From positions 1,302,001 through 1,366,000 of the forward strand of contig OU365335.1 of the NCBI GenBank assembly GCA_910822395.1: a DNA stretch of 64,000 bases, written 5' to 3'. Position 1 is the stretch's first letter. Every line of letters begins with the position of its first letter. The position numbers were made by a program, and so were the translations under genes. Below, in pieces: positions 7,518 to 36,906 of this stretch. This DNA comes from Pseudoclavibacter triregionum. Its GTDB lineage: Bacteria; Actinomycetota; Actinomycetes; Actinomycetales; Microbacteriaceae. The notes under the pieces are model-generated. The model saw only the letters and a list, made by a program, of their open reading frames with translations, did no database searches and was not told where the DNA came from.

Positions 7518-8408
7518 GTGCAAGCAGAGTTCTCGACGACGTACGAGCGATCCTTCGGCAGCCTCACCCTCCACGTGTCGGGCGCGAGCAACGTCGGCCG
7601 CGTCCGCCAGGTGAACGAGGACTCCTTCTTCGCGAAGTCGCCCGCCTTCTTCGTCGCGGACGGCATGGGCGGCCACGCCTACGGCGACCGCGCGAGCCAG
7701 ACCGTCGTCGAGACCTTCGACGAGGCGCTCCAGGACGAGTCGCCGCTGCGCCCCGAGCGCATCCTCGAGCTCATCGACCAGGCGAACGAGCACGTCCAGA
7801 ACCTCATCACCGAGGACGACGGCCCCGGCGCCGTCGCCGGCACGACACTCTCCGGCATCGCGATCGTCGACGTCGACGAGATCGGCGGCGACGAGCTCCA
7901 CTGGATGATCTTCAACGTGGGCGACTCGCGCGTCTACGGCTGGAACGGCCGCTCGCTCATCCAGGTCACGGTCGACCACTCGGCCGTCCAGGAGATGGTG
8001 GCGATGGGCCTCATCACGCCCGCCGACGCGCTCATCCACCCCGACCGCAACGTCATCACGCGCGCCGTCGGCTCGGAGCGCCACGTCGAGACCGACATCT
8101 GGCTCATGCCGACCCGCGGCCACCAGGTCTTCCTCCTGTGCTCGGACGGGCTCACGAAGGAGCTCGACGACCAGCAGATCGCGCAGGTCATGGCCGAGTA
8201 CGGCGCCGAAGCGGAGCCCGCCGTGACGCTCTCGGAGGCGCTCGTCGAGGCGGCCGTCGCCGCCGGCGGACGCGACAACATCACGGTCGTCGTCGTCGAG
8301 TCGACGCTCACGCTGAAGCCCTCCTCGGGTCTCACCGCCGAGCAGGAGTCGACGACGCCGCGCGAGGCCGTTCGCGAGCAGGCAGAAGGCGGCGGGGCCG
8401 CCGGATGA
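7518..8408 (+). CDS. PP2C-family Ser/Thr protein phosphatase
   Basis: This 296-residue protein starts at GTG 7518 (weak GAAGGTG upstream). All PPM/PP2C metal-site motifs are visible: 'VNEDSFF', 'VADGMGGHAYGDRAS', 'GTTLSGI', 'FNVGDSRVY', 'LLCSDGLTKELDD' and 'GGRDNITVVVV'. There is no membrane segment, so it acts in the cytoplasm. It removes phosphate from Ser/Thr, probably opposing the kinase encoded two genes downstream and resetting binding of the FHA proteins of this cluster. Its stop overlaps the ATG of the FHA gene (ATGA, 8405-8408). This gene opens the long co-directional cluster that ends with the FtsK-type ATPase. Confidence 0.93.
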   Translation: MQAEFSTTYERSFGSLTLHVSGASNVGRVRQVNEDSFFAKSPAFFVADGMGGHAYGDRASQTVVETFDEALQDESPLRPERILELIDQANEHVQNLITEDDGPGAVAGTTLSGIAIVDVDEIGGDELHWMIFNVGDSRVYGWNGRSLIQVTVDHSAVQEMVAMGLITPADALIHPDRNVITRAVGSERHVETDIWLMPTRGHQVFLLCSDGLTKELDDQQIAQVMAEYGAEAEPAVTLSEALVEAAVAAGGRDNITVVVVESTLTLKPSSGLTAEQESTTPREAVREQAEGGGAAG

Positions 8409-11212
8409 CCGGGACGGCCGTGACCTTCGGCGGCCGTGACTGGCTGCGCCTGGAGACGGAGCGGCTCCTCCTCCTCATCGACGCCGACGCCGCCCCGCGC
8501 GTCGTCGACCGCGCGCGCGAGGGCCTCGACGACGGCCTCGGCGAGGTGCTCGACGCGCTCGTGTCGCGCGGCTTCCACCGGATGCCCGACTTCCTCGCGC
8601 TCGAGCGCGCCGACGGCGGGCTCCGCGTCCTCGGCCGCGGGCCGCTCCACGCGCGGACGCGGGCGGGCGAGGCGAGCTGGTCGCTCGACGGCCTCGTGAG
8701 CTGGTCGGAGCGCATCGTCGCCTCCGGCGAGATCGAGGTCGCGGGGGAGAGGACGCCGTGGGCGCGGGTCGCGCTCGGCGCGGCCGTCCGCGAGCTCACC
8801 GACGAGGAGGCGGATGGCGCGGCGGTCGCGGCGTCGCCGGAGCCGGAGCCGTCGATGGCGGACGCCGCGGAGGCGGCGTCGGACGAGCGGGAGGCAAGGC
8901 AGGGCGACGCGACGCAGGGCGACGCGACGAAGGGCGACGCGACGAAGGTCGAGCCTGCTGGGGCCGCCGCCGACGAGCAGCCGAGCGCCGACGAGGCGAC
9001 CGTCGCCGCCGAGTCAGCCGAGCCCGCGGCCGAGGAGCCGGCCGCGGAGGCGCCCGCTGCCGAGGAGCCGGCGGCCGACCAGCCCGACGCCCCCGCAGAG
9101 GAGCCCGCGCCGGCCGAGGACGCCTCCGAGGACGCCGAGCCCGCGTCCGCCGACGCCGCCGACGAGGCCGAGGAGTTCGACGCGAGCGATCTCGAGGGCA
9201 TCGCCCCGGACATCCTCGAGATGATCGCGGGCACGCGGAAGATCCCGACGATGGCCGAGCTCCTGGAAGAGGCGGGCATCGACCCCGACGCCGAATTCGA
9301 CGGCCGTCCGCCGGTTCGCAACGTCGGCCTCGAGATCATGCGCGCCCGCCAGCAGATCCGCGAGCGCGATCGGAAGCGCGAGCGCGCGAAGCGCGAGGCG
9401 GCCCGCGAGAAGGCCCAAGCCGAGCGGGATCGCGAGCGCAAGGCGCGCCAGGAGCGCGCGCAGTCCGAGGCCGAGGCCCGCGAGAAGCGCCGCGCGGAGG
9501 TCGCCGCCGAGCGCGATCGCAAGCTCAAGGAGTTCGCGAGCGGCCCGCGCGCGTGGCACCCCGGCGGTCCGACGACGCTCGGCGAGGCGCCCCTTGACGA
9601 CGAGGCGCGCGAGGAGCGCGCCCGCCGCCGCGCGGAGCGGCAGGCCCGCGAGGCCGCCCGCGCCGCGGCCTTCGTCGCGCGCGCCGGCGGCGCCGCGGCC
9701 GCGAGCGAAGACGCGACGGCAGGCGACCAGGGCGGCGCCGCCGACGAGAGCGCGTCGCCCGAAGCAGGCCCGGCCGGCGGACCGGCGGCTGCGAGCGCCG
9801 CCACGACGGCCCCCGCGGCCGTCGCCGCGAACGCCGACGCCTCCGGGGAGATGAGCGAGCGCGAGCGCCGTCGGGCCCGCTTCGCCGAGCGCCGCGCCGC
9901 GCGTCGTGCTGCGGCCGCCGCCCGCGCCGCCCGGGCCGAGCAGGCCGGCGGCCAGGCGGCTCCGCAGGCCGTCGAGCCTTCGCCCCAGAGCGCGCCGTCC
10001 GCGCCCTCCTCGACGCCCGCGAGCGACTCGGCCCCCGTCGTCGAGGCCTCGACGACCGCGGCGCCCCTCCAGGCCGCCGCGCCCTCCGCCGCCGCCGGCG
10101 GTGCCGCACCGACTCCCACGCCAGCTACCACGCCTGAGCCCGCCGCGCCGCAGCTCTCCGCCCCGGCGCCCCTCGGGAGTGCGCCCGCGGCGAGCAAGCC
10201 CGCGCCGGCCCCCGCCGACGATCCGAGCCCCTACGACTTCCTCTTCGGCAGCACCGTCACGATGAACGAGGTGAGCCGACGCCTGCGCGAGAGGTCCGAG
10301 GCGCGCGCCGCCGACTCGGCCGACGACGCCTCCGCCGCGGCGCCCGCCGAGGCCGCCGAGCCCGTCGCCCGGCCGGTCGCGCAGACGCCCGCCGACCCGC
10401 CGACGCCCCCGGCCCCCGCCGAGCCGTCCCGCCTCGAGGCGACCCAGGCGCAGGCCCAGACCCCCGTCCCCGCCGACGACTCGCCCTTCGCCGGCGACCA
10501 CGACGGCAGCACCGTCCTCGCCGCCGAGCTCCGCGCCTGGCGCGCGAGCCCCGGCCGCCACGCCGCTCCCGCGATCTCGCTCGGCTCGGTCGGCGCCTTC
10601 TCCGCGGGCCGCACCTTCGCTGACGCCGACTCCGACGCCCACGCCGCCCCGCCCGTCTGGGGCCCCGGCGCCGCCGACGGCGACCACGACGGCCACACCG
10701 TCCGCACCGAGTCGATCGCCGAGCTCCGCCGCCGCGCCGCCGAGACCTCCGCCGCCGCGGCGCAGGCAGCCGCCCCGCAGGCGAGCGGGCCCGCGCCCAC
10801 CGCGCCCACCGAGGCCGGCACCACCGCGCCGATCACGGTCATCCCCGAGGCGCCGGAGCTCGCCGTCGTCACCTCGACCGGCGTGACGACGCCGCTCGAG
10901 GGCGTCATCGTCTACGGCCGCGCGCCCCGCGCCGACCACCCGGGCGTCCTCGACGGACTCTCGGGCGAGCTCGCCCGCCGCGATCCGCGCACCGTCGTCA
11001 TCTCCGGCTCGACCGACATCTCGCGCAACCACGTCCGCGTCTCGCTCGAGGGCGGCGCGATCATCGTCACCGACCTCCACTCGCGCAACGGCACCGACAT
11101 CGTCCTGCCCGGCCGCTCGGCCCAGCGCCTGCGCGCCGGCGAGCCGACCGCCGTCCTGCCCGGCACCGTCGTCGACCTCGGCGACGGCATCACGCTCCGG
11201 ATCGGGGGCTAG
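8405..11212 (+). CDS. Large FHA-domain protein with disordered and coiled-coil middle
   Basis: This 935-residue protein begins at ATG 8405, overlapping the PP2C stop. Residues 1-130 form a conserved-looking globular domain. Residues 140-300 are acidic Ala/Glu/Pro-rich and include a GDAT[Q/K] tandem repeat near 8900-8950. A charged coiled coil follows at about 315-390 ('RQQIRERDRKRERAKREA'), then long Ala/Pro linkers. The FHA domain fills about residues 840-935 ('ISRNHVRVSLEG' and 'LHSRNGTDIVLPG'). Three copies of a G-[S/H]-T-V motif (Thr617, Thr703, Thr765; two within GDHDGxTV) lie before the FHA domain and may be kinase targets. It probably is a phospho-regulated scaffold; the precise role is unknown. 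Confidence 0.8.
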   Translation: MTGTAVTFGGRDWLRLETERLLLLIDADAAPRVVDRAREGLDDGLGEVLDALVSRGFHRMPDFLALERADGGLRVLGRGPLHARTRAGEASWSLDGLVSWSERIVASGEIEVAGERTPWARVALGAAVRELTDEEADGAAVAASPEPEPSMADAAEAASDEREARQGDATQGDATKGDATKVEPAGAAADEQPSADEATVAAESAEPAAEEPAAEAPAAEEPAADQPDAPAEEPAPAEDASEDAEPASADAADEAEEFDASDLEGIAPDILEMIAGTRKIPTMAELLEEAGIDPDAEFDGRPPVRNVGLEIMRARQQIRERDRKRERAKREAAREKAQAERDRERKARQERAQSEAEAREKRRAEVAAERDRKLKEFASGPRAWHPGGPTTLGEAPLDDEAREERARRRAERQAREAARAAAFVARAGGAAAASEDATAGDQGGAADESASPEAGPAGGPAAASAATTAPAAVAANADASGEMSERERRRARFAERRAARRAAAAARAARAEQAGGQAAPQAVEPSPQSAPSAPSSTPASDSAPVVEASTTAAPLQAAAPSAAAGGAAPTPTPATTPEPAAPQLSAPAPLGSAPAASKPAPAPADDPSPYDFLFGSTVTMNEVSRRLRERSEARAADSADDASAAAPAEAAEPVARPVAQTPADPPTPPAPAEPSRLEATQAQAQTPVPADDSPFAGDHDGSTVLAAELRAWRASPGRHAAPAISLGSVGAFSAGRTFADADSDAHAAPPVWGPGAADGDHDGHTVRTESIAELRRRAAETSAAAAQAAAPQASGPAPTAPTEAGTTAPITVIPEAPELAVVTSTGVTTPLEGVIVYGRAPRADHPGVLDGLSGELARRDPRTVVISGSTDISRNHVRVSLEGGAIIVTDLHSRNGTDIVLPGRSAQRLRAGEPTAVLPGTVVDLGDGITLRIGG

Positions 11213-11214
11213 CC

Positions 11215-13167
11215 GTGTCGACCTCCCGCCGCACGCCCGCCGCCCCGCCCGAGATCCCGGGCTTCGTCTACCAGCGCCTGCTCGGCTCGGGCGGCTTCTC
11301 CGACGTCTACCTCTACGAGCAGCAGCTCCCGCGCCGCCTCGTCGCCGTGAAGGTCCTCCTCGGCGGCGACGACCTCAACGAGACGAGCCGCCAGGCCTTC
11401 ATCGGCGAGGCCAACCTCATGGCGCAGATGTCGTCCCACCCCTACATCGTCACGATCTTCCACGCCGACGTCGCCGCCGACGGCCGCCCCTACTTCGTCA
11501 TGGAGTACGCGCCCGGCAAGAGCCTCTCCGAGCGCTACAAGACCGAGGTCATCCCGGTCGAGGAGGTGCTGCGCACGGGCGTCCGCGTCGCGAGCGCCGT
11601 CGCGACCGCGCACCAGGTCGGCATCCTCCACCGCGACATCAAGCCCGCGAACATCCTCGCGAACGACTACGGATGGCCTGCCCTCACCGACTTCGGCATC
11701 TCCTCGGCCGTCGACGACGAGCTCGCCGACGCCGCCGAGGGCGAGACCACCGCGACCGCGGGCATGTCGGTGCCGTGGTCGCCGCCGGAGATGTTCTCCG
11801 ACCACCCCGTGCCGGATGCCCGCTCCGAGGTATTCTCGCTCGGCGCGACCGTCTACACCGCGCTCGCCGGCCACTCGCCCTTCGAGATCCGCGGCCGGAA
11901 GAACGGCACGATCGACCTCATCGGCCGCATCGAGCGCGGGCAGATCACGCCCGTCACGCGCTCGGATGCGCCCCGCTCGCTCATCGCCGTGCTGCAGCGG
12001 GCCATGTCGGTCCGGCCCACCGACCGCTACGCGACGGTCATGGACTTCGCGCGCGCCCTCCAGCGCGTCGAGCTCGAGCTCGGCTTCCCGCCCACACCGA
12101 TCGACGTGCCGAAGATGAACGTCGCCGCGCCCGCGAGCGCCCCCGCGGGCGATTTCGACGCGACGAGCACGCGCCAGGTCGCGACGATCGACGCGCAGGG
12201 CACGGGTCTCGCGAGCGGAGCCTCGACGCCCGCCGCCTACGAGGGCGCGCGGGCGAGCGAGGAGGAGCGGACCTCGACCCGCTCGGTCATCCGCATCGCG
12301 GCGCAGCGGGAGACGGGGCCGGGCGCGCCCTGGTCCGCGGGCGCCATGACGGCCGCCGGCGCCGCGGGCGCCGCCGCGCTCGACGCCGAGACGACGGGCG
12401 CGCGGGCGCCGCAGCCCATCCGGGCCCAGCCGATCGAGCTGCCGGGCTCGCTGCCCGGCGCCCGCGTCGAGGGCGGGGAGGCGGATTCCGGCGCCGCCGC
12501 CGGCCGCGCGGGCGGATCGTCCGTCCCCACCTTCGCCGAGCCCGAGCTCCGCGCCCCCGAGGCCGCCGAGGGGCCCGTCCGCCCCGTCTTCGAGCGCGGC
12601 CGCATCGAGCTCCCCGAGGACACCGCGAGCGGCGCCGAGATCGCCGCCCTCCGCGGCGGCCGCCCCGCCGTCTCGACGACCGCCGCGGCGGAGGCCGCCG
12701 AGCGCCGCCGCGGCGACCACGCCGACCCCTACGGCGAGGCGCCGAAGAAGAAGAGCCCGAACCTCCTCGTCGGCATCCTCGCCGGCCTCGTCGTCGTGCT
12801 GCTCGCCGTGCTCATCGTGCTCGGCTGGGTGTTCCGCCCCAAGGAGACGCCCGCCGGGGCCGGGGCGACGACGGCGCCCACGGGGGTCGTCGGCGCGGCC
12901 GCCGCCTATCCGCCCTCGCCCGTCGCGCCCATCTCCGTGCGCGACTCGAGCGGGTACATCACCTTCCGCTGGGAGAACCCGGACCCGCAGAGCGGCGACA
13001 GCTACTACTGGCGCCTCTCCGACAAGTCGCAGGCGGGGCAGACCACCCAGGAGCCCACCGCGGTCGTCGGGCCGTCGCCGGAGGGCGTGAAGGTGTGCAT
13101 CAACGTCGAGATCCGACGGAACGGGAAGACGAGCGCCGAGCCGCTCGTGGCCTGCTATCCGCAGTAG
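11215..13167 (+). CDS. Membrane-anchored Ser/Thr protein kinase (Hanks type)
   Basis: This 650-residue kinase starts at GTG 11215, 2 nt after the FHA gene. Residues 15-280 hold the catalytic domain: glycine loop 'LGSGGFSDVY', Lys46 in 'VAVK', catalytic 'HRDIKPANIL' from His139, DFG at 159-161. A linker rich in Thr and Ala follows, then one membrane helix (about 517-541) and an extracellular C-terminus of about 85 residues with two cysteines and no PASTA repeats. The extracellular part 'SSGYITFRWENPDPQSGD' resembles an FN3-like strand pattern and may sense a surface ligand. Likely target proteins are the neighbouring FHA-linked components. The paired phosphatase is encoded at 7518. Confidence 0.92.
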   Translation: MSTSRRTPAAPPEIPGFVYQRLLGSGGFSDVYLYEQQLPRRLVAVKVLLGGDDLNETSRQAFIGEANLMAQMSSHPYIVTIFHADVAADGRPYFVMEYAPGKSLSERYKTEVIPVEEVLRTGVRVASAVATAHQVGILHRDIKPANILANDYGWPALTDFGISSAVDDELADAAEGETTATAGMSVPWSPPEMFSDHPVPDARSEVFSLGATVYTALAGHSPFEIRGRKNGTIDLIGRIERGQITPVTRSDAPRSLIAVLQRAMSVRPTDRYATVMDFARALQRVELELGFPPTPIDVPKMNVAAPASAPAGDFDATSTRQVATIDAQGTGLASGASTPAAYEGARASEEERTSTRSVIRIAAQRETGPGAPWSAGAMTAAGAAGAAALDAETTGARAPQPIRAQPIELPGSLPGARVEGGEADSGAAAGRAGGSSVPTFAEPELRAPEAAEGPVRPVFERGRIELPEDTASGAEIAALRGGRPAVSTTAAAEAAERRRGDHADPYGEAPKKKSPNLLVGILAGLVVVLLAVLIVLGWVFRPKETPAGAGATTAPTGVVGAAAAYPPSPVAPISVRDSSGYITFRWENPDPQSGDSYYWRLSDKSQAGQTTQEPTAVVGPSPEGVKVCINVEIRRNGKTSAEPLVACYPQ

Positions 13168-13190: not shown

Positions 13191-14015
13191 ATGCGCGAGC
13201 AAGGGGGAGCGACGATGGGGGAGACGGCGATGGAAGAGCGAGAGCAGGCCGAGGAGCGCGAGCTCCGCGAGCAGCCGCCCGCCGAGGCGGCCGAGGCCGG
13301 CGCCCTCCGTATCGACTTCTGCGGCGAGGAGTACGTGCTCGACCCGAGCGCGCCGTTCACGATCGGCCGGGAGGCCGATCTCTCGATCGACGAGAACCCG
13401 TACCTGCACCGCACCTTCCTCGTCGTCGTCTTCGAGTTCGGGATGTGGTGGCTCCAGAACGTCGGCCGCACGCTCTCCGCGACCGTGAGCGACGAGTCCG
13501 GCCAGGTGCAGTCGTGGCTCGCGCCGGGCGCGAAGCTGCCGATCGTCTTCCCGCACACGAACGTCATGTTCAGCGCCGGATCGACGACCTACGACTTCGC
13601 GATCCACACGAGCGCCGACTTCTACAACACGACGCACCACAACGTCGAGGAGTCCGGCTCGACGACGCAGGACGCCGTCCACCTCACCTCGAGCCAGCGC
13701 CTCCTCGTCGTCGCGCTCGCCGAGGACGTCCTCCGGGTCAACGCGCCGGGCCGCGGCGAGATCCCGTCCTCGGCGGAGGCCGCCGCGCGCCTCGGCTGGA
13801 CGATGACGACCTTCAACCGCAAGCTCGACAACGTCTGCGACAAGCTCGACAAGATGGGCGTGACGGGCCTCCGCGGCGGCCGCGGCAAGCTCGCGACGAA
13901 CCGCCGCGCGCGCCTCGTCGAGTACGCGGTCTCGACGCGGCTCGTGACGCCGGAGGACCTCGTGCTGCTCGACCAGAACGACGCCGAGCGCGCGGCGGGG
14001 ACCGTGACGGCCTAG
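13191..14015 (+). CDS. FHA-like / helix-turn-helix-like cytoplasmic protein of the T7-like locus
   Basis: This 274-residue protein starts at ATG 13191 behind GAGGGGGAG; ATG 13215 also has a ribosome site and cannot be excluded. Residues 45-150 look like a degenerate FHA fold: 'FTIGREADLSIDENPYLHRT' matches the GR...SR start of FHA domains, but the later SxxH and NG positions are altered. Residues 165-250 ('LTSSQRLLVVALAEDVLR', 'PSSAEAAARLGWTMTTFNRK', 'NRRARLVEYAVSTRLV') resemble a winged-helix DNA-binding region. It therefore could link the kinase to transcription. Homologues of known function are not recognised. Confidence 0.6.
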   Translation: MREQGGATMGETAMEEREQAEERELREQPPAEAAEAGALRIDFCGEEYVLDPSAPFTIGREADLSIDENPYLHRTFLVVVFEFGMWWLQNVGRTLSATVSDESGQVQSWLAPGAKLPIVFPHTNVMFSAGSTTYDFAIHTSADFYNTTHHNVEESGSTTQDAVHLTSSQRLLVVALAEDVLRVNAPGRGEIPSSAEAAARLGWTMTTFNRKLDNVCDKLDKMGVTGLRGGRGKLATNRRARLVEYAVSTRLVTPEDLVLLDQNDAERAAGTVTA

Positions 14016-14194: not shown

Positions 14195-17100
14195 ATGCTC
14201 GAGCGTCGCCGCCGTCGCGCGCAGCGGCTCCTCACGGCGATCCTCGCCCTCCTCATCGTCGTCCCGCTCGCCATCGCCGCCCTCCACCCGGGCTTCGCCG
14301 CGACAAGCCAGGCGCCCGAGCGCGGCTCGGTGTGGGTCGCGAACGACCGCATGGGCCTCATCGCGCGCGTGAACGACGCCGCCCAGGAGCTCGACGCCTC
14401 GCTCGCGGCCGCCCCCGGCACGCGGATCCTCCAGGCCGGCCTCGACGTCTTCCTCGTCGACCCCGAGGCGGGCGTCGTCGGCCGCCTCGATCCCGCGCGC
14501 GTCGAGCTGCGCGAGCGGATCACCGTGCCGCCGGGCGCGGAGGTCGCCTGGAACGCGGGGGTCATGTCGATCCTCGACCCCGCCTCGGGCCGGCTCTGGG
14601 GCATCCTCACCGACCGCGAGCTCGAGTTCGATCCGCGCACGACCCAGCCGCTCGCCGAGCTCGGCGCGGGCGCCCAGGCGGTCGTCGCCGTCGACGGCGC
14701 GATCATCGCCTACGCGCCGGGCTCCGGCGCCGTCATCCGGATCCGCCCCGGCTCGGCGCCCGAGCGCATCATCGTGCCTGCCGGCCTCGGCGAGGACGTC
14801 GAGCTCACCGCCGTCGGCGACCGCCCCGTCCTCCTCGACCGCGACCGGAGCGTCGTCATCCTCGACGGCCGCCGCGAGCTCGCGCTCTCCGCCGACGGCG
14901 TCCGCATCCAGCAGCCGGGCCCGCGCGCCGACACGGTCGTCGTCGCGACCGCCGACGCGCTCCTGGCCGTCCCCTTCTCGGGCGACAAGGTGGAGGACGT
15001 CGGCGCGGCGGGCTCGGGCATGGGCTCCGCCTCCTCGATCGCCGACCCCGTCGCGGTCTCGCGCCCGCTCGTCGTCGGGCCGTGCGTGTACGGCGCCTGG
15101 GCCGCGCTCGCCGCCGTCACCTCGCGCTGCGCCGGGCAGGAGGAGCGGCAGCTGCGCATCCGCGATCTCCTCGAGGGCGGCGAGCTCGTGCTCCGCGAGA
15201 ACGGCGGCCGCGTCGTCGCGAACAACCTCGCGAACGGGCGCAGCTACCTCGCCGACCTCAACCTCCTCCCCGTCGAGGGCTGGGAGTCGCTCGTCCCGCC
15301 CTCCCCGGCCCCCGAGCCCGCGCCGGCGCCGGACGCCCTCGCCCAGCAGCTCGCCGCCCGCACCGGCCAGAACCACGCCCCCGAGCTGCGCGACGACGTC
15401 ATCGGCGTGCGGCCCGGGGAGACGACGACCTTCTCGCTCCTCGCGAACGACCTCGACTCCGATGGCGACGTGCTCGAGATCGCCGAGCTGCGCGGCTCCC
15501 TCCCCGCCTCGATCGGCGCGATCGAGATCGTCGACGGCGGCCGGGCCGTGCAGGTGCGCGCCGCCCCCGAGGCCGAGGGCTCGGCGCAGCTCGGCTACAT
15601 CGCGAGCGACGGCCGCCCCGGCGGCGTCTCGCAGGCGGGGGTCACCGTCCGCGTCATCCCGCCCGAGGCGAACGCGGGCCCCGTCACCGAGCGGCGCGAC
15701 ACGGTCGCCGTGGAGCTCGGCCAGTCGATCGAGGCCGAGGTGCTCTCGGGCTGGTCGGACCCGGACGGCGACCCGCTCACGCTCGTGGCCGCCGAGGGCG
15801 CCGCCGGCACGCTCGTGCGCTTCACCTCCGACGGCCGCATCACGGCGACCGCCTCGGGCGGCGAGCCCGGGCTTCGGGAGATCTCGTACCGCGTCTACGA
15901 CGGCATCCGCGAGAGCTTCGGGACCCTCGGCCTCGACGTCCACCCGGCCGGCACGCTCGCCCCCGTCGCCGAGCCCGACGCCGCGAGCAGGCTCGCGAAC
16001 GCCCCCATCGTGCTGCGCCCCCTCGAGAACGACCGCTCGCCGAGCGGCCAGCCGCTGCGGCTCGCCTCCGTGCGCTCCCTCGACGGGGTGGCCGGGACGG
16101 CCGTCGTCGACCCGGACCGCGGCGAGCTCACGCTCTCGACGAGCGCGCCCGGCACCTACTACCTCGAGTACACGGTCGCCGCGGGCCCGCTCACGACGAT
16201 CGGCCTCGCGCGCGTCGACGTGCTCGAGACGGCCGGCGAGCCGGACCCGCCCGTGGCCGCGCAGGACGTCGTGCACCTCGCCCCCGGCTCGAGCGCGAGC
16301 GTCGACCTCACCGCGAACGACCTCTCGCCCTCGGGCCGCGTGCTGGGCGTCGCCTCCATCGACCTCGCCGCCGTCGCCGAGGAGCCCGGGCTCGCCGTCG
16401 CCCTCGACGGCGGCGCCATCGCGCGGATCGAGGCGGTCGGCGGCATCGCGGAGCCCGTCCGCGTGCCCTATGTCGTCTCCGACGGCGTCGCGAGCTCGCC
16501 CGGCGAGCTGCTCGTGCTGCCGGCCGCGAGCTCGGCGCTCGCGGCCTCGCCGAGGGCCGAGGACGACATCGTCCGCGTCCGCGCCGGTGAGCTCGCGACG
16601 CTCGACCCGCTCGCCAATGACGTCCAGCCGGACGGCCTGCCCCTGCGCCTCGACCCGCGCCTGCTCGACCCCGGCATCCCCGCGGGATCGGGCGGCCTCG
16701 CCGTCGTCGCGGGGCAAGAGGTCCGCATCCAGGCGCCGCCGCAGGCCGGCACCTACACCGCGAGCTACGGCGTCACCGACTCGCGCGGGGCGCAGGCGCG
16801 AGGACGCATCACGATCGAGGTCTCGGCCCCCGATCCCGCGGCGAACCGGCCGCCGTCGCCGGCCGAGCGCGTCGTGCGGGCGACGGCGGGGCAGGCCATC
16901 CGCATCGAGCTGCCGCTCTCGGGCGCCGACCCGGACGGCGACGCGACGACGCTCGCCTCGATCGACTCGGTGCCGAGCCTCGGCGCGATCCGCGAGCAGG
17001 GGCCGGGCTGGATCGTCTACGCCGCGAACCCGAGCGCGGGCGGCACCGAGGAGCTCGGGTATTCGCTCGCCGACGGTCACGGAGGCGTCGGCACTGGGAC

Positions 17101-17870: not shown

Positions 17871-17908
17871 CGGTGGACGCGGAGGACGCCTGGGGGAGGG
17901 GGACGCCG

Positions 17909-28487: not shown

Positions 28488-31400
28488 AGATCAACCTCAC
28501 GCTCGTCCGCCCCGGCAGCCGCCAGGTCGACCTCACGCTCACCGCCGAGCCGACGACCCCGATCGTCGACATCGCGCGCGAGATCTACAACGCCGACCCG
28601 GAGCGGGAGGGCGCGCCGCTCGGCGTCGAGGACCGCATCTCCCTCCGCCTCCATACGCCGCCGGACGAGCAGGGCCGCTCGACGAGCCGCGTCCTCGACT
28701 ACGCGACCCCGCTCGCCGACTCGAGCCTCGCGGGCGGCGCCTACGTGTCGCTCGCGAACGCCGTCGAGGCGAAGGAGGGCCACGAGACCCGCCGGCGCGG
28801 CGCCGCGAAGATCACCGTGCTCTCCGGCGCCGACGACGGGCGCGAGTTCTCCGTCGGCCACGGCTCCTCGACGATCGGCCGCGATCCGGGCCAGGACATC
28901 GTCCTCCGCGACGAGCTCGTCTCGAAGGCGCACGCCCGCCTCAACATCTCCGACGTCGCCGAGGTCATCGACATGGGCTCGGCGAACGGCACTCGCGTGA
29001 ACGGCGAGCTCATCACGCGCGCGAACGTCACCCGGAACGACGTCGTCACCGTCGGCTCGACCTCGTTCATGATCGAGGTCGCCGCGCTCGGCGCCGGCGC
29101 CGACCTCGGCGGCGTCGTCTCGCTCAACCGCTCGCCGCGCCTCGACCCGCAGTACGCGGGCCGCGAGATCATCGCCCCCGAGCCGCCGGAGAAGCCGAAG
29201 CCCGCGCATCTGCCGTGGACGATGTTCCTCATCCCGCTCGTCATGGGCCCGATCTTCCTGCTCGCGGGCCGCGGTCCGGCGTCGATGATCTTCATGCTCA
29301 TGATGCCGCTCATGGCGCTCGGCATGTACCTCGACAACTCGCGCCGCTCGAAGAAGGAGTGGAAGGACGCCCGCGTCGAGTTCGCGGCGGCCGTCGACGC
29401 GACCGCCGACGAGATCGACGAGGAGCACCGCCTCGAGCGGGCCATGCGGCTCAAGGAGGCGCCGAGCGTCGCCGAGATCATCGACGACGCCTTCTCGCGG
29501 GGGCCGCTGCTGTGGACCCGGCGCCCTGAGCACGACGCCTACCTCAAGCTCCGCCTCGGCATCGGCTCGATGGCGAGCCGCATCGAGATGAAGATGCCGA
29601 CGAGCAAGAAGGGCCTGCCCGAGATGTGGCGGGACCTCCGCCGCCTCGAGGCGCATGGCTCGACCGTCCACGACGTGCCCGTCGTCGAGAACCTCCGCTC
29701 CTCCTCGAACCTCGGCGTCGGCGGGCAGCGGGCCGTCGCGGTCGGCGTCGCCCGCGCGATCGCCATCCAGATCGCCGGCCTCCACTCGCCGGCCGAGCTC
29801 GCCATCGCCGCCGTCGCCTCGACCGAGTCGGCGCGCGACTGGCACTGGCTGCGCTGGCTGCCGCACGTCACGGGCGGGCACTCGCCGCTCGGCGGCGAGC
29901 CGCTCGCCGCGGGCACCGAGCCCGTGGGCCGCATGACGACCGCGCTCGAGGACCTCCTCGAGCTGCGCCGCACGGGGTCCGGGCCGGGCGCCGCGGCGAG
30001 CTCCGGCAGCGCCGACGAGCTCCCCTCGCCCACGCTCCCGACCGTCGTCCTCATCGTCGAGGACGACGCGCCCGTCGAGCGCGCCCGCCTCATCCAGCTC
30101 GCCGAGCAGGGCCCGGCCTACGGCATCCACCTCCTCTGGGTCGCCGGCTCGCTCGCGCGCATCCCGGCCGCCTGCCGCACCTACCTCGAGCTCAGCCCCG
30201 CGTCCGGCGACGCCGTCGCGGGCTTCGTGCGCACCGGGCTCGGCGTGCAGCCGGTCGTCTGCGACCTCGTCGACCACGCCGGCGCGGAGGCCTTCGCCCG
30301 CGCCCTCACCCCCGTCGAGGACGCGAGCGCCCGCATCGACGACGCGAGCGACCTGCCGCGCTCCATCAACTTCCTCTCGATCGTCGGCACCGAGATCGCC
30401 GAGAGCCCGGACGCCATCCTCGAGCGCTGGGGCGAGACGCACTCGATCCTCACCGGCCCGCTCGCCTCGAAGCAGATCGGGAAGCAGCGCTCGACCCTCC
30501 GCGCCGTGTTCGGCATGGCGGCGGGGGAGCCCTTCGCGATCGACCTCCGCACCGACGGCCCCCATGCCCTCGTCGGCGGCACGACGGGATCCGGAAAGTC
30601 GGAGTTCCTCCAGGCGTGGGTGCTCGGCATGGCCACCGCCCACTCGCCGCAGCGCGTCTCGTTCCTCTTCGTCGACTACAAGGGCGGCTCGGCCTTCGCC
30701 GAGTGCACGAAGCTGCCGCACTGCGTCGGCATCGTCACCGACCTCTCGCAGCACATGGTCTACCGGGCGCTCACCTCGCTGCGCGCCGAGCTCCACTACC
30801 GCGAGCACCTCTTCAACCGGAAGAAGGTGAAGGACCTCATCGAGCTCGAGCGCTCGGGCGACACGGAGGTCCCGCCCGCGCTCATCATCATCGTCGACGA
30901 GTTCGCGGCCCTCGTGAACGAGGTGCCGGAGTTCGTCGACGGCATGGTCGACATCGCCCAGCGAGGCCGCTCGCTCGGCCTCCACATGGTGCTCGCGACC
31001 CAGCGCCCCGCGGGCGTCATCCGCGACAACCTCCGCGCGAACACGAACCTCCGCATCGCGCTGCGCATGGCCGACGAGGACGACTCGAAGGACATCCTCG
31101 GCACGAAGATGGCCGCCCACTTCGACTCCGCGACCCCCGGCCGCGGCGCCGCGAAGACCGGCCCCGGCCGCATCCGCGCCTTCCAGTCCGGCTACGCGGG
31201 CGGCTGGACGAGCGGCGAGAAGGAGCCGAGCCGCGTGCTCGTCGAGGAGCTTCGCTTCGGCCGCGCCATCCAGTGGGAGCCGCCGAAGGACCCGGACGCC
31301 GCGCGGAAGAAGGAGGAGCTCGCGAAGCGGCCGAACGACATGAAGCGGATCGTCGGCACGGTCATGAGGGCCCGCGAGATCGCCGAGATCCCGGAGCTTC

Positions 31401-32947
31401 GCCGCCCGTGGCTGCCCGAGCTCGAGCCGACCTACGACCTCGCGCAGCTGCCGAACCCGCGCCTCGACACCGAGATCCTCCTCGGCGTCTGCGACCGCCC
31501 GGCCGAGCAGTCGCAGCCGACGATGTCCTGGTTCCCCGACCGCGACGGCAACTTCGCCGTCATGGGCACCGGCGGCTCGGGCAAGTCGAGCGCGCTGCGC
31601 ACGATCGCCGTCTCGGCGGGCATCAGCGCGAAGGGCGGGCCCATCCACGTCTACGGCCTCGACTTCGCGGGCGGCGGCCTCGCGATGCTCGAGACGCTCC
31701 CGCACGTCGGCGCCGTGCTCTCGGCCGACGAGGAGGACCGCATCGGACGGCTCCTGCGCACCATCCAGAAGGAGATCGACGACCGCGTCCTCCGCTACTC
31801 GGAGGCGCGCGCCGCGACGATCACGGAGTACCGCCAGATCGCGGGCCGCCCCGAGGAGCCGCGCATCCTCATCCTCCTCGACGGCTTCCGGCTCTTCCGC
31901 GACACCTATGAGTCGAACATCCGCATGCCGTTCTGGCCGATCTTCGAGCAGATCGCGAGCGACGGCCGCCAGGTGGGCGTGCACCTCATCATCACCGCCG
32001 ACCGCGTGGGCGGGATCCCCATGTCGCTGAGCTCGTCGATCCAGCGCCGGCTCATCCTCCGCCTCACGAGCCGCGACGACTACGCCTCGGCGAACGTGCC
32101 GAAGGACATCCTCACCCCGGCCTCGCCTCCCGGCCGCGGCATCCTCGACGGGCTCGAGCTCCAGCTCGGCGTGCTCGGCGGCGACTCGAACGTCGCGGTG
32201 CAGTCGCGGCAGCTCGAGGCCCTCGCCGCCTCGATGCGCCGGGCCGGGCTCTCGGAGGCGCCGGGCGTCGCGTCGCTCCCCGAGGTCGTGCCCTTCTCGG
32301 CCCTCGGCGGGCAGCGCCCCGAGGCGATCGCCATCGGCATCGGCGACGAGGAGCTCGCGCCGCTGCGCATCGAGCCCGTCGGCGCCTTCGTCGTCACCGG
32401 CCCTCCCGGCTGCGGCAAGACGACCGCCCTCGTCACGATCGGCACGGCGCTGCGCGTCGCGAAGCCGGCCGCCCGCATCTACCTCATCTCCGGCCGGCGC
32501 TCGACGATCGCGGCGACGGGGCCCTGGTCGCACGCGACGCACGACCACGAGGAGATCCTCGAGCTGCTCGAGGACCTTGGGGAGGAGCTCGCCCGCGGCA
32601 CGCTCCAGCCCGGCGAGATCACGGTCGTGCTCGAGTACCTCGCCGACTTCGGCGGGACGCCCCTCGAGCGCCAGCTCGAGCCCATCGTCAAGGAGCTCAT
32701 CAAGCAGGACCAGTTCGTCGTCGCCGAGAACGAGCTCGCCACGTGGAGCCAGATCTACGGCATCGGCGGCGCGCTCCGCGCGAAGCGCCGGGGCATCATC
32801 CTCCAGCCCGCCGAGGGCGAGGCCGACAACGTGCTCTCGACGCCCCTCGGCCGCATCAAGCGCGGCACCCTGCCCGTGGGCCGCGGCTTCTACGTCGCGC
32901 AGGCGAAGGCGGTCAAGGTCCAGATGGGCATCGTCGAGGGCGCGTAG
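28484..32947 (+). CDS. EssC/EccC-type FtsK/SpoIIIE secretion ATPase with ubiquitin-like and FHA N-terminus
   Basis: This 1487-residue protein starts at ATG 28484, overlapping the previous stop. Residues 1-85 look like a ubiquitin-like (YukD/EsaB-type) domain, 105-200 an FHA domain ('STIGRDPGQDIVLRDELVSK' and 'GSANGTRVNG'), and 244-285 two membrane helices. Three FtsK-type ATPase domains follow: D1 with GTTGSGKS (699-706) and Walker B ending D805-E806; D2 with GTGGSGKS (1028-1035) but DG in place of DE in Walker B; D3 with GPPGCGKT (1306-1313) and a degenerate Walker B ('VVLEYLADF'). This is the motor of type VII secretion, which moves WXG100 substrates across the membrane. Fusion to FHA is the EssC pattern of Firmicutes, not that of mycobacterial EccC. 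Confidence 0.92.
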   Translation: MKINLTLVRPGSRQVDLTLTAEPTTPIVDIAREIYNADPEREGAPLGVEDRISLRLHTPPDEQGRSTSRVLDYATPLADSSLAGGAYVSLANAVEAKEGHETRRRGAAKITVLSGADDGREFSVGHGSSTIGRDPGQDIVLRDELVSKAHARLNISDVAEVIDMGSANGTRVNGELITRANVTRNDVVTVGSTSFMIEVAALGAGADLGGVVSLNRSPRLDPQYAGREIIAPEPPEKPKPAHLPWTMFLIPLVMGPIFLLAGRGPASMIFMLMMPLMALGMYLDNSRRSKKEWKDARVEFAAAVDATADEIDEEHRLERAMRLKEAPSVAEIIDDAFSRGPLLWTRRPEHDAYLKLRLGIGSMASRIEMKMPTSKKGLPEMWRDLRRLEAHGSTVHDVPVVENLRSSSNLGVGGQRAVAVGVARAIAIQIAGLHSPAELAIAAVASTESARDWHWLRWLPHVTGGHSPLGGEPLAAGTEPVGRMTTALEDLLELRRTGSGPGAAASSGSADELPSPTLPTVVLIVEDDAPVERARLIQLAEQGPAYGIHLLWVAGSLARIPAACRTYLELSPASGDAVAGFVRTGLGVQPVVCDLVDHAGAEAFARALTPVEDASARIDDASDLPRSINFLSIVGTEIAESPDAILERWGETHSILTGPLASKQIGKQRSTLRAVFGMAAGEPFAIDLRTDGPHALVGGTTGSGKSEFLQAWVLGMATAHSPQRVSFLFVDYKGGSAFAECTKLPHCVGIVTDLSQHMVYRALTSLRAELHYREHLFNRKKVKDLIELERSGDTEVPPALIIIVDEFAALVNEVPEFVDGMVDIAQRGRSLGLHMVLATQRPAGVIRDNLRANTNLRIALRMADEDDSKDILGTKMAAHFDSATPGRGAAKTGPGRIRAFQSGYAGGWTSGEKEPSRVLVEELRFGRAIQWEPPKDPDAARKKEELAKRPNDMKRIVGTVMRAREIAEIPELRRPWLPELEPTYDLAQLPNPRLDTEILLGVCDRPAEQSQPTMSWFPDRDGNFAVMGTGGSGKSSALRTIAVSAGISAKGGPIHVYGLDFAGGGLAMLETLPHVGAVLSADEEDRIGRLLRTIQKEIDDRVLRYSEARAATITEYRQIAGRPEEPRILILLDGFRLFRDTYESNIRMPFWPIFEQIASDGRQVGVHLIITADRVGGIPMSLSSSIQRRLILRLTSRDDYASANVPKDILTPASPPGRGILDGLELQLGVLGGDSNVAVQSRQLEALAASMRRAGLSEAPGVASLPEVVPFSALGGQRPEAIAIGIGDEELAPLRIEPVGAFVVTGPPGCGKTTALVTIGTALRVAKPAARIYLISGRRSTIAATGPWSHATHDHEEILELLEDLGEELARGTLQPGEITVVLEYLADFGGTPLERQLEPIVKELIKQDQFVVAENELATWSQIYGIGGALRAKRRGIILQPAEGEADNVLSTPLGRIKRGTLPVGRGFYVAQAKAVKVQMGIVEGA

Positions 32948-33107: not shown

Positions 33108-34697
33108 ATGTCCGTGCGATTCGAACCCGCCGCCTCGAGCGGCTCCGCGTCTGCAGCCGCCGACGGCACCACGGCCGCGGCCCCCGGCGCGCCCGCCGAC
33201 GGCACGGCCCTCCCCGAGGGCGTGAAGCCCCTGCGCCAGCGCCACGTCACGATGATCGCCCTCGGCGGCATCATCGGCGCGAGCCTCTTCGTGGGCTCGG
33301 GCCAGGTCATCCGCGACGTCGGCCCCGCCGCGATCCTCTCCTGCGCCCTCGGCGGCCTCCTCGTCGTCCTCGTCATGCGCATGCTCGGCGAGATGGCGAC
33401 GACGCGCCCCGCCGTCGGCTCCTTCATGGAGTACGCCCGCATCGGCCCTGGCCCCTGGGCCGGCTACTCGATCGGCTGGCTCTCCTGGTACTTCTGGGTC
33501 GGCGTCATCGCCTTCGAGGCCGTCGTCGCCGGCGACGTCCTCCACGGATGGCTGCCCGACGCGGCCGCGTGGCTCCTCGCCGCCATCTCGCTCCTCGTGC
33601 TCGCCGCGACGAACCTCATCTCGCTGCGCTCCTTCGGCGAGACCGAGTTCTGGCTCGCGAGCATCAAGGTCGCGACGATCATCGTCTTCCTCATCGTCGG
33701 AGCCCTGTTCGTCCTCGGCCTCTGGCCGAACGCCACCTTCGCCGTGCCGAACCTCTGGCAGCAGGAGGGCGGCTTCATGCCGAACGGCATCCAGGCCGTC
33801 ATCGCCGGCGTCGCCGTCGTGATCTTCTCCTACTTCGGCACCGAGATCGCCACGATGGCCGGCGCCGAGTCGGACGACCCCGCCCGCGGCATCAAGCGCG
33901 CCACGAACTCGGTCATCTGGCGGATCATGCTCTTCTACGTCGGCGGCGTGACGCTCCTCGTCATGATGATCCCGTGGGCGACCTCCTCGAAGACTCCCGG
34001 CCCGTTCGTGCAGGCCTTCGAGATGTTCGGCATCCCCTACGCGGGCCTCGTCATCCAGATCGTCGTCCTCACGGCCGCCATCTCGGTGCTCAACTCGGGC
34101 ATCTACTCGGCCTCGCGCATGCCCATGGCGCTCTCGCACAAGTCGTTCGCCCCGAAGGCGCTCGGCCGCCGCTCGGGCCACGGCGTCCCGACCTGGGCCG
34201 TCCTCGTCACGTCGGTCGTCGTGCTCGCGATCGTCGCGATCAACTACGCGCTGCCCAAGGGCGCCTTCGACTTCATCATGAACTCGGCCGGCGCCGTCGC
34301 CCTCTTCGTCTACGCGTTCATCGCCGTGACGCAGATGGTGCTCCGCAACCGCATGCCGAAGTCGGTCCAGGACAAGCTCCAGCTCAGGATGTGGCTGCAC
34401 CCCTGGGGCGCGATCCTCGTCATGGCGATGGTCGCCGGTGTCGTCGTCGTCATGCTCGTCCTCAGCGACGACTCGCGCCAGCAGGTGCTCCTCTCGCTCG
34501 GCTGCTTCGCGCTCCTGCTCGTGCTGTGGCGGCTCGTCCACCGCACCGCGATCAAGCGGGGCGTCATCCCGGAGGGCACGCCGATGTTCGGCCGCGCCCC
34601 CGGCGACGACAAGCTCATCGACGAGTCGCTCGTCGTGCCGGGCTCGCCCGAGGCCGCGGCGATCCGCCCGGATCTCCACCGGGCTGCGGACGCCTGA
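33108..34697 (+). CDS. Amino-acid permease, APC superfamily (GabP/AAT family)
   Basis: This 529-residue protein starts at ATG 33108 behind GAGAAGGA. After a 40-residue Ala-rich cytoplasmic lead, it shows the family signature 'MIALGGIIGASLFVGSG' in helix 1 and 'SYFGTEIATMAGAESDDPA' in the helix 6-7 region; about 12 membrane helices can be counted. Such proteins import amino acids or GABA with protons. Substrate is not determined. It lies between the secretion ATPase and the WXG100 genes but has no evident functional tie to them. Confidence 0.9.
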   Translation: MSVRFEPAASSGSASAAADGTTAAAPGAPADGTALPEGVKPLRQRHVTMIALGGIIGASLFVGSGQVIRDVGPAAILSCALGGLLVVLVMRMLGEMATTRPAVGSFMEYARIGPGPWAGYSIGWLSWYFWVGVIAFEAVVAGDVLHGWLPDAAAWLLAAISLLVLAATNLISLRSFGETEFWLASIKVATIIVFLIVGALFVLGLWPNATFAVPNLWQQEGGFMPNGIQAVIAGVAVVIFSYFGTEIATMAGAESDDPARGIKRATNSVIWRIMLFYVGGVTLLVMMIPWATSSKTPGPFVQAFEMFGIPYAGLVIQIVVLTAAISVLNSGIYSASRMPMALSHKSFAPKALGRRSGHGVPTWAVLVTSVVVLAIVAINYALPKGAFDFIMNSAGAVALFVYAFIAVTQMVLRNRMPKSVQDKLQLRMWLHPWGAILVMAMVAGVVVVMLVLSDDSRQQVLLSLGCFALLLVLWRLVHRTAIKRGVIPEGTPMFGRAPGDDKLIDESLVVPGSPEAAAIRPDLHRAADA

Positions 34698-34833: not shown

Positions 34834-35109
34834 ATGGGCACCGGCATGAAGGGCATGAACGTCGAGCGGGGCAACCAGGTCCTCGGTCAGATCCAGGTCC
34901 GCATCGGCATGGTCGAGGGCGAGATCACGAAGATGGAGGCCGTGAAGGCGGCCCTCGAGGCGAACTGGCACGGCCCGGACTCGACGGCGATGATCGCCCG
35001 CGTCGAGACGAACATCGGCGAGATGAAGCACATCGTCACGCAGCTCGAGGAGCGCAAGACGGAGCTCCAGGAGGACGTCAACGAGCAGTCGCAGACCTCG
35101 GCCAAGTAG
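34834..35109 (+). CDS. WXG100 family secreted protein 1 (ESAT-6-like)
   Basis: This 91-residue protein starts at ATG 34834. Two predicted helices flank the turn W45-H46-G47, the WxG motif that defines ESAT-6/CFP-10-like substrates of type VII secretion. No signal peptide is present. The C-terminus 'NEQSQTSAK' shares an EQxxTSAx pattern with the other two WXG100 proteins here, and the mycobacterial YxxxD/E secretion motif is absent. It is expressed from its own promoter and ended by a strong terminator. It may form dimers with one of its neighbours and be exported by the ATPase at 28484. Confidence 0.9.
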   Translation: MGTGMKGMNVERGNQVLGQIQVRIGMVEGEITKMEAVKAALEANWHGPDSTAMIARVETNIGEMKHIVTQLEERKTELQEDVNEQSQTSAK

Positions 35110-35362: not shown

Positions 35363-35641
35363 ATGGCTTTCACGCACGGCATGAACCTGGCCGAGATCCA
35401 GAACCAGTTCAAGCAGATGGGCACGATCCACACCGACCTCGGGACCAACCGGGGCGAGGGCAACGACATGATCATCGAGTTCGTCGAGTCCGACTGGTGG
35501 GGCGACGACGCCACGAAGTTCCAGACCACCTGGATGGACACGGTCGACAAGGCCTTCGACAAGGCCATGGACACGCTCGAGCAGATCAAGGCCGACGTCA
35601 ACACGAACATCACCGAGCAGGAGACGACCTCGGCCCACTAG
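35363..35641 (+). CDS. WXG100 family secreted protein 2 (ESAT-6-like)
   Basis: This 92-residue protein starts at ATG 35363 behind AAGGGGAGAG. The WxG motif lies at W45-W46-G47 ('SDWWGDDATKF'), between two long helices. The C-terminus is 'TEQETTSAH', again matching EQxxTSAx. It diverges from WXG100 protein 1 outside the motif, so the two could form a heterodimer. Expression is from promoter 2 with the double operator. A hairpin terminator follows at 35665. Confidence 0.9.
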   Translation: MAFTHGMNLAEIQNQFKQMGTIHTDLGTNRGEGNDMIIEFVESDWWGDDATKFQTTWMDTVDKAFDKAMDTLEQIKADVNTNITEQETTSAH

Positions 35642-35783: not shown

Positions 35784-36065
35784 ATGGCAGGCGGCATGCA
35801 GGGCGGCGACCCGGCAGACATGGAGCGCGTGGCCGGCATCATCGACGGCCAGCGCCAGGAGATCGAGGGAGCCCTCAAGGAGCTCCAGACGAAGGTCCAC
35901 TCGCTCATCCCGACGATCTGGAACGGCCCCGACGCCGAGAAGTTCGTCGGCGACTTCGACGCGGAGGTGAAGCCGCAGTTCGACGAGGTCATCCGCGAGA
36001 TGACCGAGGCGGCCGCGGAGCTCCGGCGCAACGCGAAGGAGCAGGCGCAGACCTCCGCGAACTAG
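35784..36065 (+). CDS. WXG100 family secreted protein 3 (ESAT-6-like)
   Basis: This 93-residue protein starts at ATG 35784 behind ACGGAGA. The WxG motif is W46-N47-G48 ('PTIWNGPDAEKFVGDFDAEV'), the most canonical of the three. The C-terminal tail 'KEQAQTSAN' shares the EQxxTSAx pattern. The leader keeps a GGGACGACGA block also found in the leaders of genes 1 and 2, but the promoter and palindromes are missing. It is likely to be another substrate or structural component of the type VII-like system. Confidence 0.9.
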   Translation: MAGGMQGGDPADMERVAGIIDGQRQEIEGALKELQTKVHSLIPTIWNGPDAEKFVGDFDAEVKPQFDEVIREMTEAAAELRRNAKEQAQTSAN

Positions 36066-36075
36066 CGCGGCGCCC

Positions 36076-36176: not shown

Positions 36177-36182
36177 GCGCAC

Positions 36183-36906
36183 GTGGCCAACTCCGGATTC
36201 ATCGAGCCCCCGCCCGGCATGTTCGGCGCGCCCGCGACGCCGCGGGCCGAGACGCCGATGCCGGCCGCCGCCGCGCCCGCGACCCCCGAGCCGCATAACG
36301 CGCCCGCGGCGCCGAGCGCGCGCGAGCGACCCGCCGCGCGCCCGAGCTTCGCGCCGCGCCCGGCCGCGCCGCAAAGAGGCCGCGCAGGCTCCCGCCGCGC
36401 AGCCCGCAACCCCGCAGGCTCCCGCCGCTCCGCAGCTCGCCGAGCCGGCCACGCGCCCGCTCGGCTACGACGCCGCCCGCGGCGAGCTGCCCCCGTTCCC
36501 GCGCTTCGACCCCGAGCGCCTCCCGGCGCCCCGCGGGGGAGCGCGCCCGGCCGGCCCCGAGGCGAACGCGCCTCGCCGGTGGATCCTCGGCCTCCCCGAC
36601 GGCACCTCCTTCCCGCTCGACGCCCCGGTCGTCCTCGGCCGGAACCCCGCGGCCGAGCACTTCCCGCACGTCGCGGTGCGCGCTCTCAGCGATCCGACCC
36701 GCACGATGTCGAAGACGCACGCCCGCTTCCTCGTCGAGGGCGGCGCGCTCTTCGTCGACGACCTCAACTCGACGAACGGCGTGGCCGTGCTCCCCGGCGG
36801 CGAGCTCGCCCGGGCGACGGCCGTCGAGCCGGGCCGCCCCGCCGAGGTGCGCGCGGGCGACGTCGTCCAGCTCGGCGAGTACCCGATCTCGGCCCGCGTC
36901 GAGTAG
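36183..36906 (+). pseudogene. FHA-domain protein gene with an apparent +1 frameshift
   Basis: GTG 36183 opens a frame that reads 'MANSGFIEPPPGMFG' and a Pro/Ala-rich linker. Near 36363-36372 the coding signal moves to the +1 frame, which continues the linker ('KEAAQAPAAQPATPQAPAA') and then encodes a complete FHA domain of about 110 residues ('VVLGRNPAAEHF', 'MSKTHARFLVEGG', 'LNSTNGVAVLPGG') to the stop at 36906. Removing one C near 36372 restores a single protein of about 240 residues. No good internal start lies before the FHA domain. Sequencing error in a GC run, a real inactivating insertion, or programmed frameshifting are all possible; the first two are more likely. Confidence 0.65.

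Follow-up and report, generated by a model that had tools for sequence, protein, structure and literature searches.

The 64,000-nucleotide stretch of Pseudoclavibacter triregionum DNA analyzed here (the window) contains a gene cluster at positions 7518–36906, in which all named genes lie on the + strand. The source genome (G000) consists of a single contig of 2.36 Mb and is 90.3% complete. The genes that an earlier note on this DNA had listed as one cluster are all present, supported by Pfam matches and by the high third-position GC of the frames of all named genes. A codon-based gene caller was trained on the cluster's own genes and therefore gives no independent proof of the frames. That the cluster goes beyond chance is indicated by the recurrence of its gene set, in order, in other families. 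A gene for tRNA-Glu (CTC) is situated directly upstream at 7269–7344, and tRNA was the only RNA matched in an Rfam scan.

The first gene (7518–8408) codes for a PP2C-type Ser/Thr phosphatase (Pfam PP2C_2, 46.6 bits) with intact motifs, which are kept across the aligned relatives and are weakest in G066. It is followed by a 935-residue Ala/Glu-rich protein (8405–11212) with a C-terminal FHA domain (Pfam FHA, 27.4 bits), where motif reading finds GR, SxxH, and NG all present. The third gene (11215–13167) encodes a membrane Ser/Thr kinase (Pfam Pkinase, 125.4 bits) that carries VAVK, HRDIKPAN, and DFG and, as read from the sequence, a single transmembrane helix with a short external domain. The K, HRD, and DFG residues are intact in all 32 aligned kinase rows. 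The next protein (13191–14015) has no Pfam match; its fold, read from the sequence, is FHA-like with a winged-helix-like C-terminal part. GR is kept, NPYLH replaces SxxH, and the protein is conserved in 21 aligned rows. It is likely a regulator.

Two giant Ig-like proteins are encoded downstream. Ig protein 1 (14195–17740) consists of a signal anchor, a propeller-type domain, and Big_9/cadherin-like repeats (Pfam Big_9, 219.3 bits over seven stretches). Ig protein 2 (17873–23317, with 17909 as a possible alternative start) has a signal anchor, a β-propeller, eight Big_9 stretches (226.8 bits), and two fn3 domains, which Pfam finds in this second protein only. An AlphaFold2 model of the N terminus of Ig protein 2 (pLDDT 87.4, pTM 0.80) contains a helix at residues 20–42 and an all-β domain at residues 57–373, and the Foldseek matches of the model are largely β-propellers. 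The N-terminal domain of Ig protein 1 is covered by an alignment (A3). The base of the Ig proteins is thus predicted to be a membrane-anchored β-propeller, a feature that is new here.

The Ig genes are followed by genes for a MoxR AAA+ ATPase (23412–24380; Pfam AAA_3, 208.6 bits), a DUF58 membrane protein (24484–25815; Pfam DUF58, 45.5 bits, transmembrane segments read from the sequence), and a TgpA-like membrane protein with a pseudo-transglutaminase domain (25812–28487; Pfam Transglut_core, 56.5 bits). The TgpA_N match of the last protein, at 28.6 bits, falls just below the Pfam cut-off of 30. The earlier note had taken this protein for a transglutaminase-like (TG-like) pseudo-enzyme, and the alignment bears this out. 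None of the 23 module TG sequences aligned has kept the catalytic Cys, and its column is occupied by E, Q, D, G, or A. In the window protein, which has E at this position, the catalytic His is replaced as well; the His is kept only in four rows, all of the gamma type described below. An outgroup transglutaminase, G016x, retains both Cys and His.

The gene at 28484–32947 encodes an EssC-like motor composed of a putative ubiquitin-like domain (residues ~1–95), an FHA domain (residues ~105–200), a transmembrane segment, and three ATPase domains. The P-loops of the three ATPase domains are visible in the sequence, in agreement with the earlier description of a three-ATPase FtsK protein. Pfam matches the motor with FtsK_SpoIIIE (185 bits) and FHA. 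The best-scoring model is EssC (TIGR03928), with 550 bits over residues 215–1370 against an equivalog cut-off of 778; the scores for EccCa (395 of 509 bits) and EccCb (329 of 347 bits) are likewise under their curated cut-offs. Two marks of a type VII system are found in the locus: an EccC/EssC motor with multiple ATPase domains and WXG100 proteins, of which one scores over the cut-off and two below. The FHA domain of the motor contains the phosphothreonine (pThr)-binding residues GR, S-x-x-H, and N-G, complete in 25 of 25 aligned rows.

The first 95 residues of the motor form two strands, a helix, and further strands in an AlphaFold2 model of 213 N-terminal residues (pLDDT 86.7, pTM 0.52). 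A profile of this region, built from 21 members with the row of genome G141 included, gave eight matches in the PDB at E values up to 10. Six of the eight are ubiquitin-like, and the matches include a redesigned ubiquitin (the best, E 0.0012), SAMP1, Hydra-1ubq, and MoaD; SAMP1 and MoaD we take to be ubiquitin-like proteins. The fold-search lists (Foldseek, VIA) for the motor N terminus were filled by FHA chains. Pfam YukD matches only 3 of the 21 members (best E 0.007), and the N-terminal domain of the window motor itself has no Pfam match. Model and profile together suggest that a ubiquitin-like domain is probably fused to the N terminus of the motor, as a candidate for the place of the TsxB/YukD part. 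This putative domain in front of the FHA domain is the second feature that is new here.

The earlier note had placed three WXG100 genes after the motor. The three genes are present, but they are separated from the motor by a gene for an APC amino-acid permease (33108–34697; Pfam AA_permease, 348.7 bits) that the note had missed. No close match to the permease is situated beside the motor in the mapped relatives, where only matches of 22–23% occur, in G047 and G029. The permease probably stands outside the export system. The first two small proteins, at 34834–35109 (WHG; Pfam, 20.0 bits) and 35363–35641 (WWG; TIGR03930, 24 bits), fall below both the Pfam and the TIGR03930 cut-offs and are WXG100-like in that the length and the W-x-G motif are both present. 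The third (35784–36065, WNG) alone passes the curated cut-offs, with 42.4 bits against 27.3 for Pfam and 46.7 against 44.85 for TIGR03930. All three have a similar C-terminal tail, TSA plus one residue, which is perhaps a signal recognized by the motor. A further WXG100 gene is found away from the locus, near 333836–334090 of the contig (G000:C1, L208), where it adjoins what read as groEL and sensor kinase genes. The second WXG100 gene of the window was not picked up when the whole genome was searched for WXG100.

The last gene of the cluster, before leuC, encodes an FHA protein (36183–36906; Pfam FHA, 31.7 bits in frame 36175). It is apparently split over two frames, with a switch near 36330–36390 that the note had also missed; an intact FHA gene is present beside leuC in relatives such as G021 and G048. 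The frame switch is possibly a sequencing error or the mark of a pseudogene, and it may reflect partial decay of the locus. Together with the permease between the motor and its substrates, and with the absence of any recognized toxin-like effector in Pfam scans of the locus, the split gene would fit a set of unrelated neighbors or a decayed relict that no longer exports. The other genes are, however, open full-length frames with conserved motifs, and the gene set is kept in order elsewhere, so that we consider this explanation very improbable.

EccB, EccD, and mycosin, which accompany the motor in T7SSa, were searched for beyond the locus. No match to EccB was found in the 90% complete source genome, and the only match to EccD, a fragment interrupted by a stop, scores 19.7 bits against a cut-off of 94.95, in line with what the earlier note had claimed for the locus. 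In a family sample of 60 genomes, the window's included, EccB is positive in nine and EccD is over its cut-off in eight. EccB does not follow the phyletic pattern of the window-type motor, a coincidence that would have told against a separate architecture: only one of the nine EccB genomes, G047, has a clear motor of this type, and G019 has a borderline one at 38%. The best mycosin-like match in the source genome reaches 99.5 of 278.75 bits and is located at 713 kb, unlinked to the locus. The mycosin cut-off was passed by none of the 18 genomes searched, EccB carriers included. The locus resembles T7SSa (ESX) in its EccC-like ATPase domains and WXG100 proteins, and it differs from it in the lack of EccB and of EccD above the cut-off in the genome, as well as in the separate clade formed by EccC. 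The likeness to T7SSb lies in EssC as the best model and in the N-terminal FHA domain. In contrast to T7SSb, the motor scores below the EssC cut-off, no model match to EssA, EssB, or EsaA is found among the ten locus proteins scanned, and the pThr site of the motor is intact, unlike that of the EssC FHA domain as characterized in PMC11217815.

The same gene order was sought in Microbacteriaceae and neighboring families, and the set recurs in several actinobacterial families. With a window-type motor defined by an alignment of at least 1,000 residues at 39% identity or more (our own cut), 19 other genomes of the family sample carry one. The module of kinase, PP2C, FHA, MoxR, DUF58, TG-like, and Ig genes is close to the motor in eight of them, being contiguous in G011, G007, G026, and G045 and within ~20 kb in G002, G043, G050, and G009; in the other 11 it is not near. 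Order-wide, a motor match of at least 1,000 bits is present in 83 of 297 genomes, the window's included, over 11 family codes by hand count. For each of 10 further families, the neighborhood of the locus with the best match was examined, a choice that makes the sample lean to close relatives. The gene set is found in seven (G331, G219, G284, G249, G204, G082, and G066, with G249 and G082 lacking the second FHA gene), and G284, G249, G082, and G066 have the order of the window. Two loci are partial: G185 reads FHA2-PP2C-FHA1-kinase-FHAHTH-motor-WXG100 up to the contig edge, and in G144, where the intervening gene calls are poor, Ig, MoxR, TG, the motor, and part of a kinase can be made out. In the tenth family, G106 has a motor without the module nearby.

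A scan of named genomes covered the best 80 of 571 motor relatives, which again lean to close ones. Among these best 80 of 571, a TG-like gene lies within 10 kb upstream in 56 of the 68 named motor loci for which that much upstream DNA is present. As far as 10 kb shows, the order TG...kinase-FHAHTH-motor is found in 41 of the 56, the window order MoxR-DUF58-TG-motor in 13, and another order in 2. Within the same best 80, a TG-like gene is seen in 4 of 12 named loci with less than 10 kb of upstream DNA, and a WXG100 profile match is found downstream in 48 of 68 named loci with at least 2 kb of downstream DNA. Well outside the family, the complete chromosome of Dactylosporangium vinaceum (L184) contains Ig-MoxR-DUF58-TG-motor-WXG100. 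An Arthrobacter-like motor locus in a record of Sporosarcina beigongshangi (L152) is probably contamination or mislabeling.

Of the order-wide motors with a match of at least 1,000 bits, 21 of 39 by hand count share their contig with a TG-like gene no more than 20 kb away, provided that the second search covered G000 and G060–G207. At the level of whole family genomes, with the window left out, a TG gene of the same clade occurs in 16 of 19 genomes with the motor and in 4 of 40 without (both, 16; motor only, 3; TG only, 4; neither, 36; Fisher p 3e-8, uncorrected for kinship). The TG-only genomes G023, G033, G048, and G056 have more distant EssC/EccC-type motors at 30–33%. The TG-like gene and the ATPase hence co-occur in other genomes, and a failure to do so had been named as grounds for giving up the proposal. 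The motors of G006, G008, G043, and G002 (L020/L021, L024/L025, L052/L053, and L056/L057) are situated downstream of apparent rpoB/rpoC. Their loci contain, by sequence reading, LXG-like proteins of ~430 residues, partners of ~109 residues, and possible immunity genes, none of which was recognized in the window.

A membrane kinase, an FHA-bearing EssC, an Ig-like giant, and WXG100 proteins also make up T7SSd (TsdA, C, D, H, and I; Garrett, Higginson and Palmer 2024, PMC11217815), which has no separate ubiquitin-like gene. The window shares these features, including an EssC whose FHA domain has the conserved pThr residues, and could for this reason be read as a plain T7SSd in another family. 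It adds PP2C, MoxR, DUF58, the pseudo-transglutaminase, propeller-based Ig proteins, and the FHA-like/winged-helix-like protein, and the main text of PMC11217815 does not name MoxR, DUF58, or transglutaminase. No small single-transmembrane gene of the TsdH type was called in 7518–36906, where short proteins may be missed. In a motor tree rooted on six EccC sequences, the motors of G141, G197, and G317 form a clade separate from the window-type motors with a support of 1.0; these loci are T7SSd-like by gene order only, and they stand in the comparison in place of the published TsdC/TsdI sequences. The Ig-like giant of the T7SSd-like loci does not match the window-type propeller-Ig N-terminal profile, and that of G141 has no BLASTP match to Ig protein 1 or 2. 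We therefore regard the identity of the locus with T7SSd as improbable. The fused domain of the window motor was also considered as the missing TsxB of T7SSd and rejected: the window-type profile misses the G141 motor (0.2 bits, E 77). A phmmer search with the N terminus of the G141 motor gave no ubiquitin-like chain; by eye, this N terminus looks similar to that of the window.

The block from the kinase to the TG-like gene has a counterpart in the PFNA operon of bifidobacteria, which runs kinase-Fn3/Ig-MoxR-DUF58-TG and in some species includes PP2C and FHA, as described in PMC8430577. The window has the same order of kinase, Fn3/Ig, MoxR, DUF58, and TG-like genes, except that an FHA-like gene follows the kinase and that there are two Ig genes. 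In contrast to the operon of the PFNA paper, the block of the window shares its locus with a motor and WXG100 genes; the words FtsK, WXG, and secretion are absent from the main text of that paper (PMC8430577). The Bifidobacterium-like genomes G141 and G197 contain both kinds of locus. Their PFNA block is located ~15–24 kb from the T7SSd-like locus with its different Ig giant, and it is the separate PFNA Ig protein that matches the propeller-Ig profile, with 227 and 224 bits. Profile matches to Ig, MoxR, DUF58, and TG are found in both genomes, and to the kinase in G197. In the open-access literature, a search for PFNA with type VII secretion gave no match, and among the matches listed none, by title and start of abstract, links PFNA or MoxR/DUF58 to T7SS or describes this locus.

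The module is also widespread away from the motor. In the family sample, a TG-like match (E 1e-8) is present in 54 of 60 genomes, a few of them weak and perhaps ordinary TgpA relatives; Ig matches (E 1e-15) occur in 52 of the same 60. Three TG types can be distinguished: alpha; beta, which is orthologous to that of the window; and gamma, which is joined to the motor with the gene order permuted. A hand count over the 60 family genomes finds the alpha type in 22 within ~5 kb of a shorter EssC-like ATPase of ~940 residues that lacks the ubiquitin-like and FHA parts; no WXG100 gene is labeled in the mapped alpha stretches. In a tree of ATPase domain 1, five alpha-type ATPases form one clade (1.0) among EssC-type motors, apart from FtsK, with a support of 0.21 for the exact placement. 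The source genome has a short orphan EssC-like ATPase of the alpha type (L026, G000:C1:1766000–1776000, ~3.3–6.0 kb in), and its sole TG match is that of the window.

The beta module is contiguous as TG-FHA2-leuC in G021, G048, and G057 and as TG-PP2C-FHA1-FHA2-leuC in G023, and none of the four has a motor inside this stretch. The window differs in that TG is separated from FHA2-leuC by the motor, the permease, and the WXG100 genes; the same place is occupied in G009 by a motor cluster, reversed. These arrangements give the motor block the appearance of a removable unit. They are also what would be expected if the Ig-MoxR-DUF58-TG-kinase-PP2C-FHA block acted independently in envelope sensing or adhesion, as proposed for the PFNA operon of bifidobacteria, and shared only its location or its regulation with a T7SS. 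Most family genomes have the block, which often lies apart from any full EssC, and some motors have no module nearby (12 of 68 named loci, among the best 80 of 571, have no TG-like gene within 10 kb upstream). In Bifidobacterium longum, moreover, the PFNA operon has its own proposed role (PMC8430577). On the other hand, tight linkage and a common order are repeated in several families, alpha TG genes accompany a short EssC-like ATPase, and modules adjoin a different EssC in G017 and G050. We consider an independent module less probable than the T7SS variant favored below.

The phylogenies bear on the same question. In the TG tree, one group unites most motor-linked loci with beta (0.97), and the alpha group (0.974) also holds G017, G050b, and L201, all beside motors. 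The earlier note had called for a comparison of ATPase and TG-like phylogenies; for 71 linked loci the two sets of distances go together at r 0.80 (uncorrected for kinship), but the controlled test is weak. With alpha TG as the control, the partial r between motor and TG reaches 0.74 for a set of 10 genomes and 0.56 for a set of 9, and the eight beta-only genomes give an r of 0.21 (p 0.13). The window TG belongs to the beta clade with a support of 100. The window motor falls outside beta in the free tree, and its placement in beta is not rejected (p-AU 0.174), for which reason we do not claim that gene transfer has exchanged the EssC of the window.

We favor, as the probable reading, that the locus is a T7SS variant apart from T7SSa and the T7SSd-like loci, in which an EssC/WXG100 core is combined with a PFNA-like module. 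This agrees with the distinct architecture proposed earlier, as a T7SS-type locus without EccB and EccD recurs in order across families. The observations on which it is built are established: the gene content and its recurrence, the conserved active-site and pThr residues, the dead transglutaminase site, the predicted propeller and FHA folds, and the ubiquitin-like profile. The locus is not wholly new, since the T7SSd trio of kinase, FHA-bearing EssC, and Ig-like giant (PMC11217815) and the PFNA block (PMC8430577) have been described. The recurring set may be an undescribed form of type VII export machine.

As a T7SS variant, the locus would work as follows. The core would be the EssC-like motor, with the putative ubiquitin-like part before its FHA domain, and the WXG100 substrates; the module would comprise the membrane kinase, PP2C, the FHA proteins, MoxR, DUF58, the dead TgpA-like transglutaminase, and the long Ig proteins. 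The kinase would phosphorylate a threonine of a partner, which would then dock on the motor FHA domain and switch assembly or activity. The motor FHA domain and the FHA proteins would read the phosphothreonine, and PP2C would reverse the phosphorylation. Phospho-threonine control had been suggested in the earlier note; the pThr residues of the motor and the intact kinase and phosphatase of the window are in place, and the control itself is what we infer from them. In B. longum, MoxR is reported to be phosphorylated by Pkb2 (PMC8430577). MoxR, DUF58, and the pseudo-transglutaminase would assemble an envelope complex, and the anchored propeller-Ig proteins may form a stalk that crosses the wall, a part suggested for EsaA in T7SSb. 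The motor would then export the WXG100 proteins. The earlier proposal that the membrane and outer parts are made up of the Ig, DUF58, and TG-like proteins is not supported as it was worded: the module is found so often away from a full EssC, and some motors have none nearby. It may form the conduit, or it may serve only to assemble or regulate it.

A wider reading, which we put forward as speculative and a little less probable than an independent module, is that every PFNA module, also in bifidobacteria, contributes the envelope half to a family of export machines of the type VII kind. In these machines the propeller-Ig proteins would cross the wall, MoxR, DUF58, and the pseudo-transglutaminase would assemble the complex, and the motor would be either a full EssC with fused ubiquitin-like and FHA domains, as in the window, or the short EssC-like ATPase of the alpha type. 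If so, the view of PFNA as a sensor of immune signals would become secondary. T7SS subtypes and the PFNA operon, which had been described apart from each other, come together here in one arrangement that recurs, and the motor itself becomes a candidate site both for the ubiquitin-like part and for a phospho-switch. The locus occurs in named and mostly cultured genera, such as Arthrobacter, Cellulosimicrobium, Terrabacter, Janibacter, and Leifsonia, and the question of which parts stand in for EccB/D/E and EsaA in other type VII systems of actinobacteria can therefore be tested directly.
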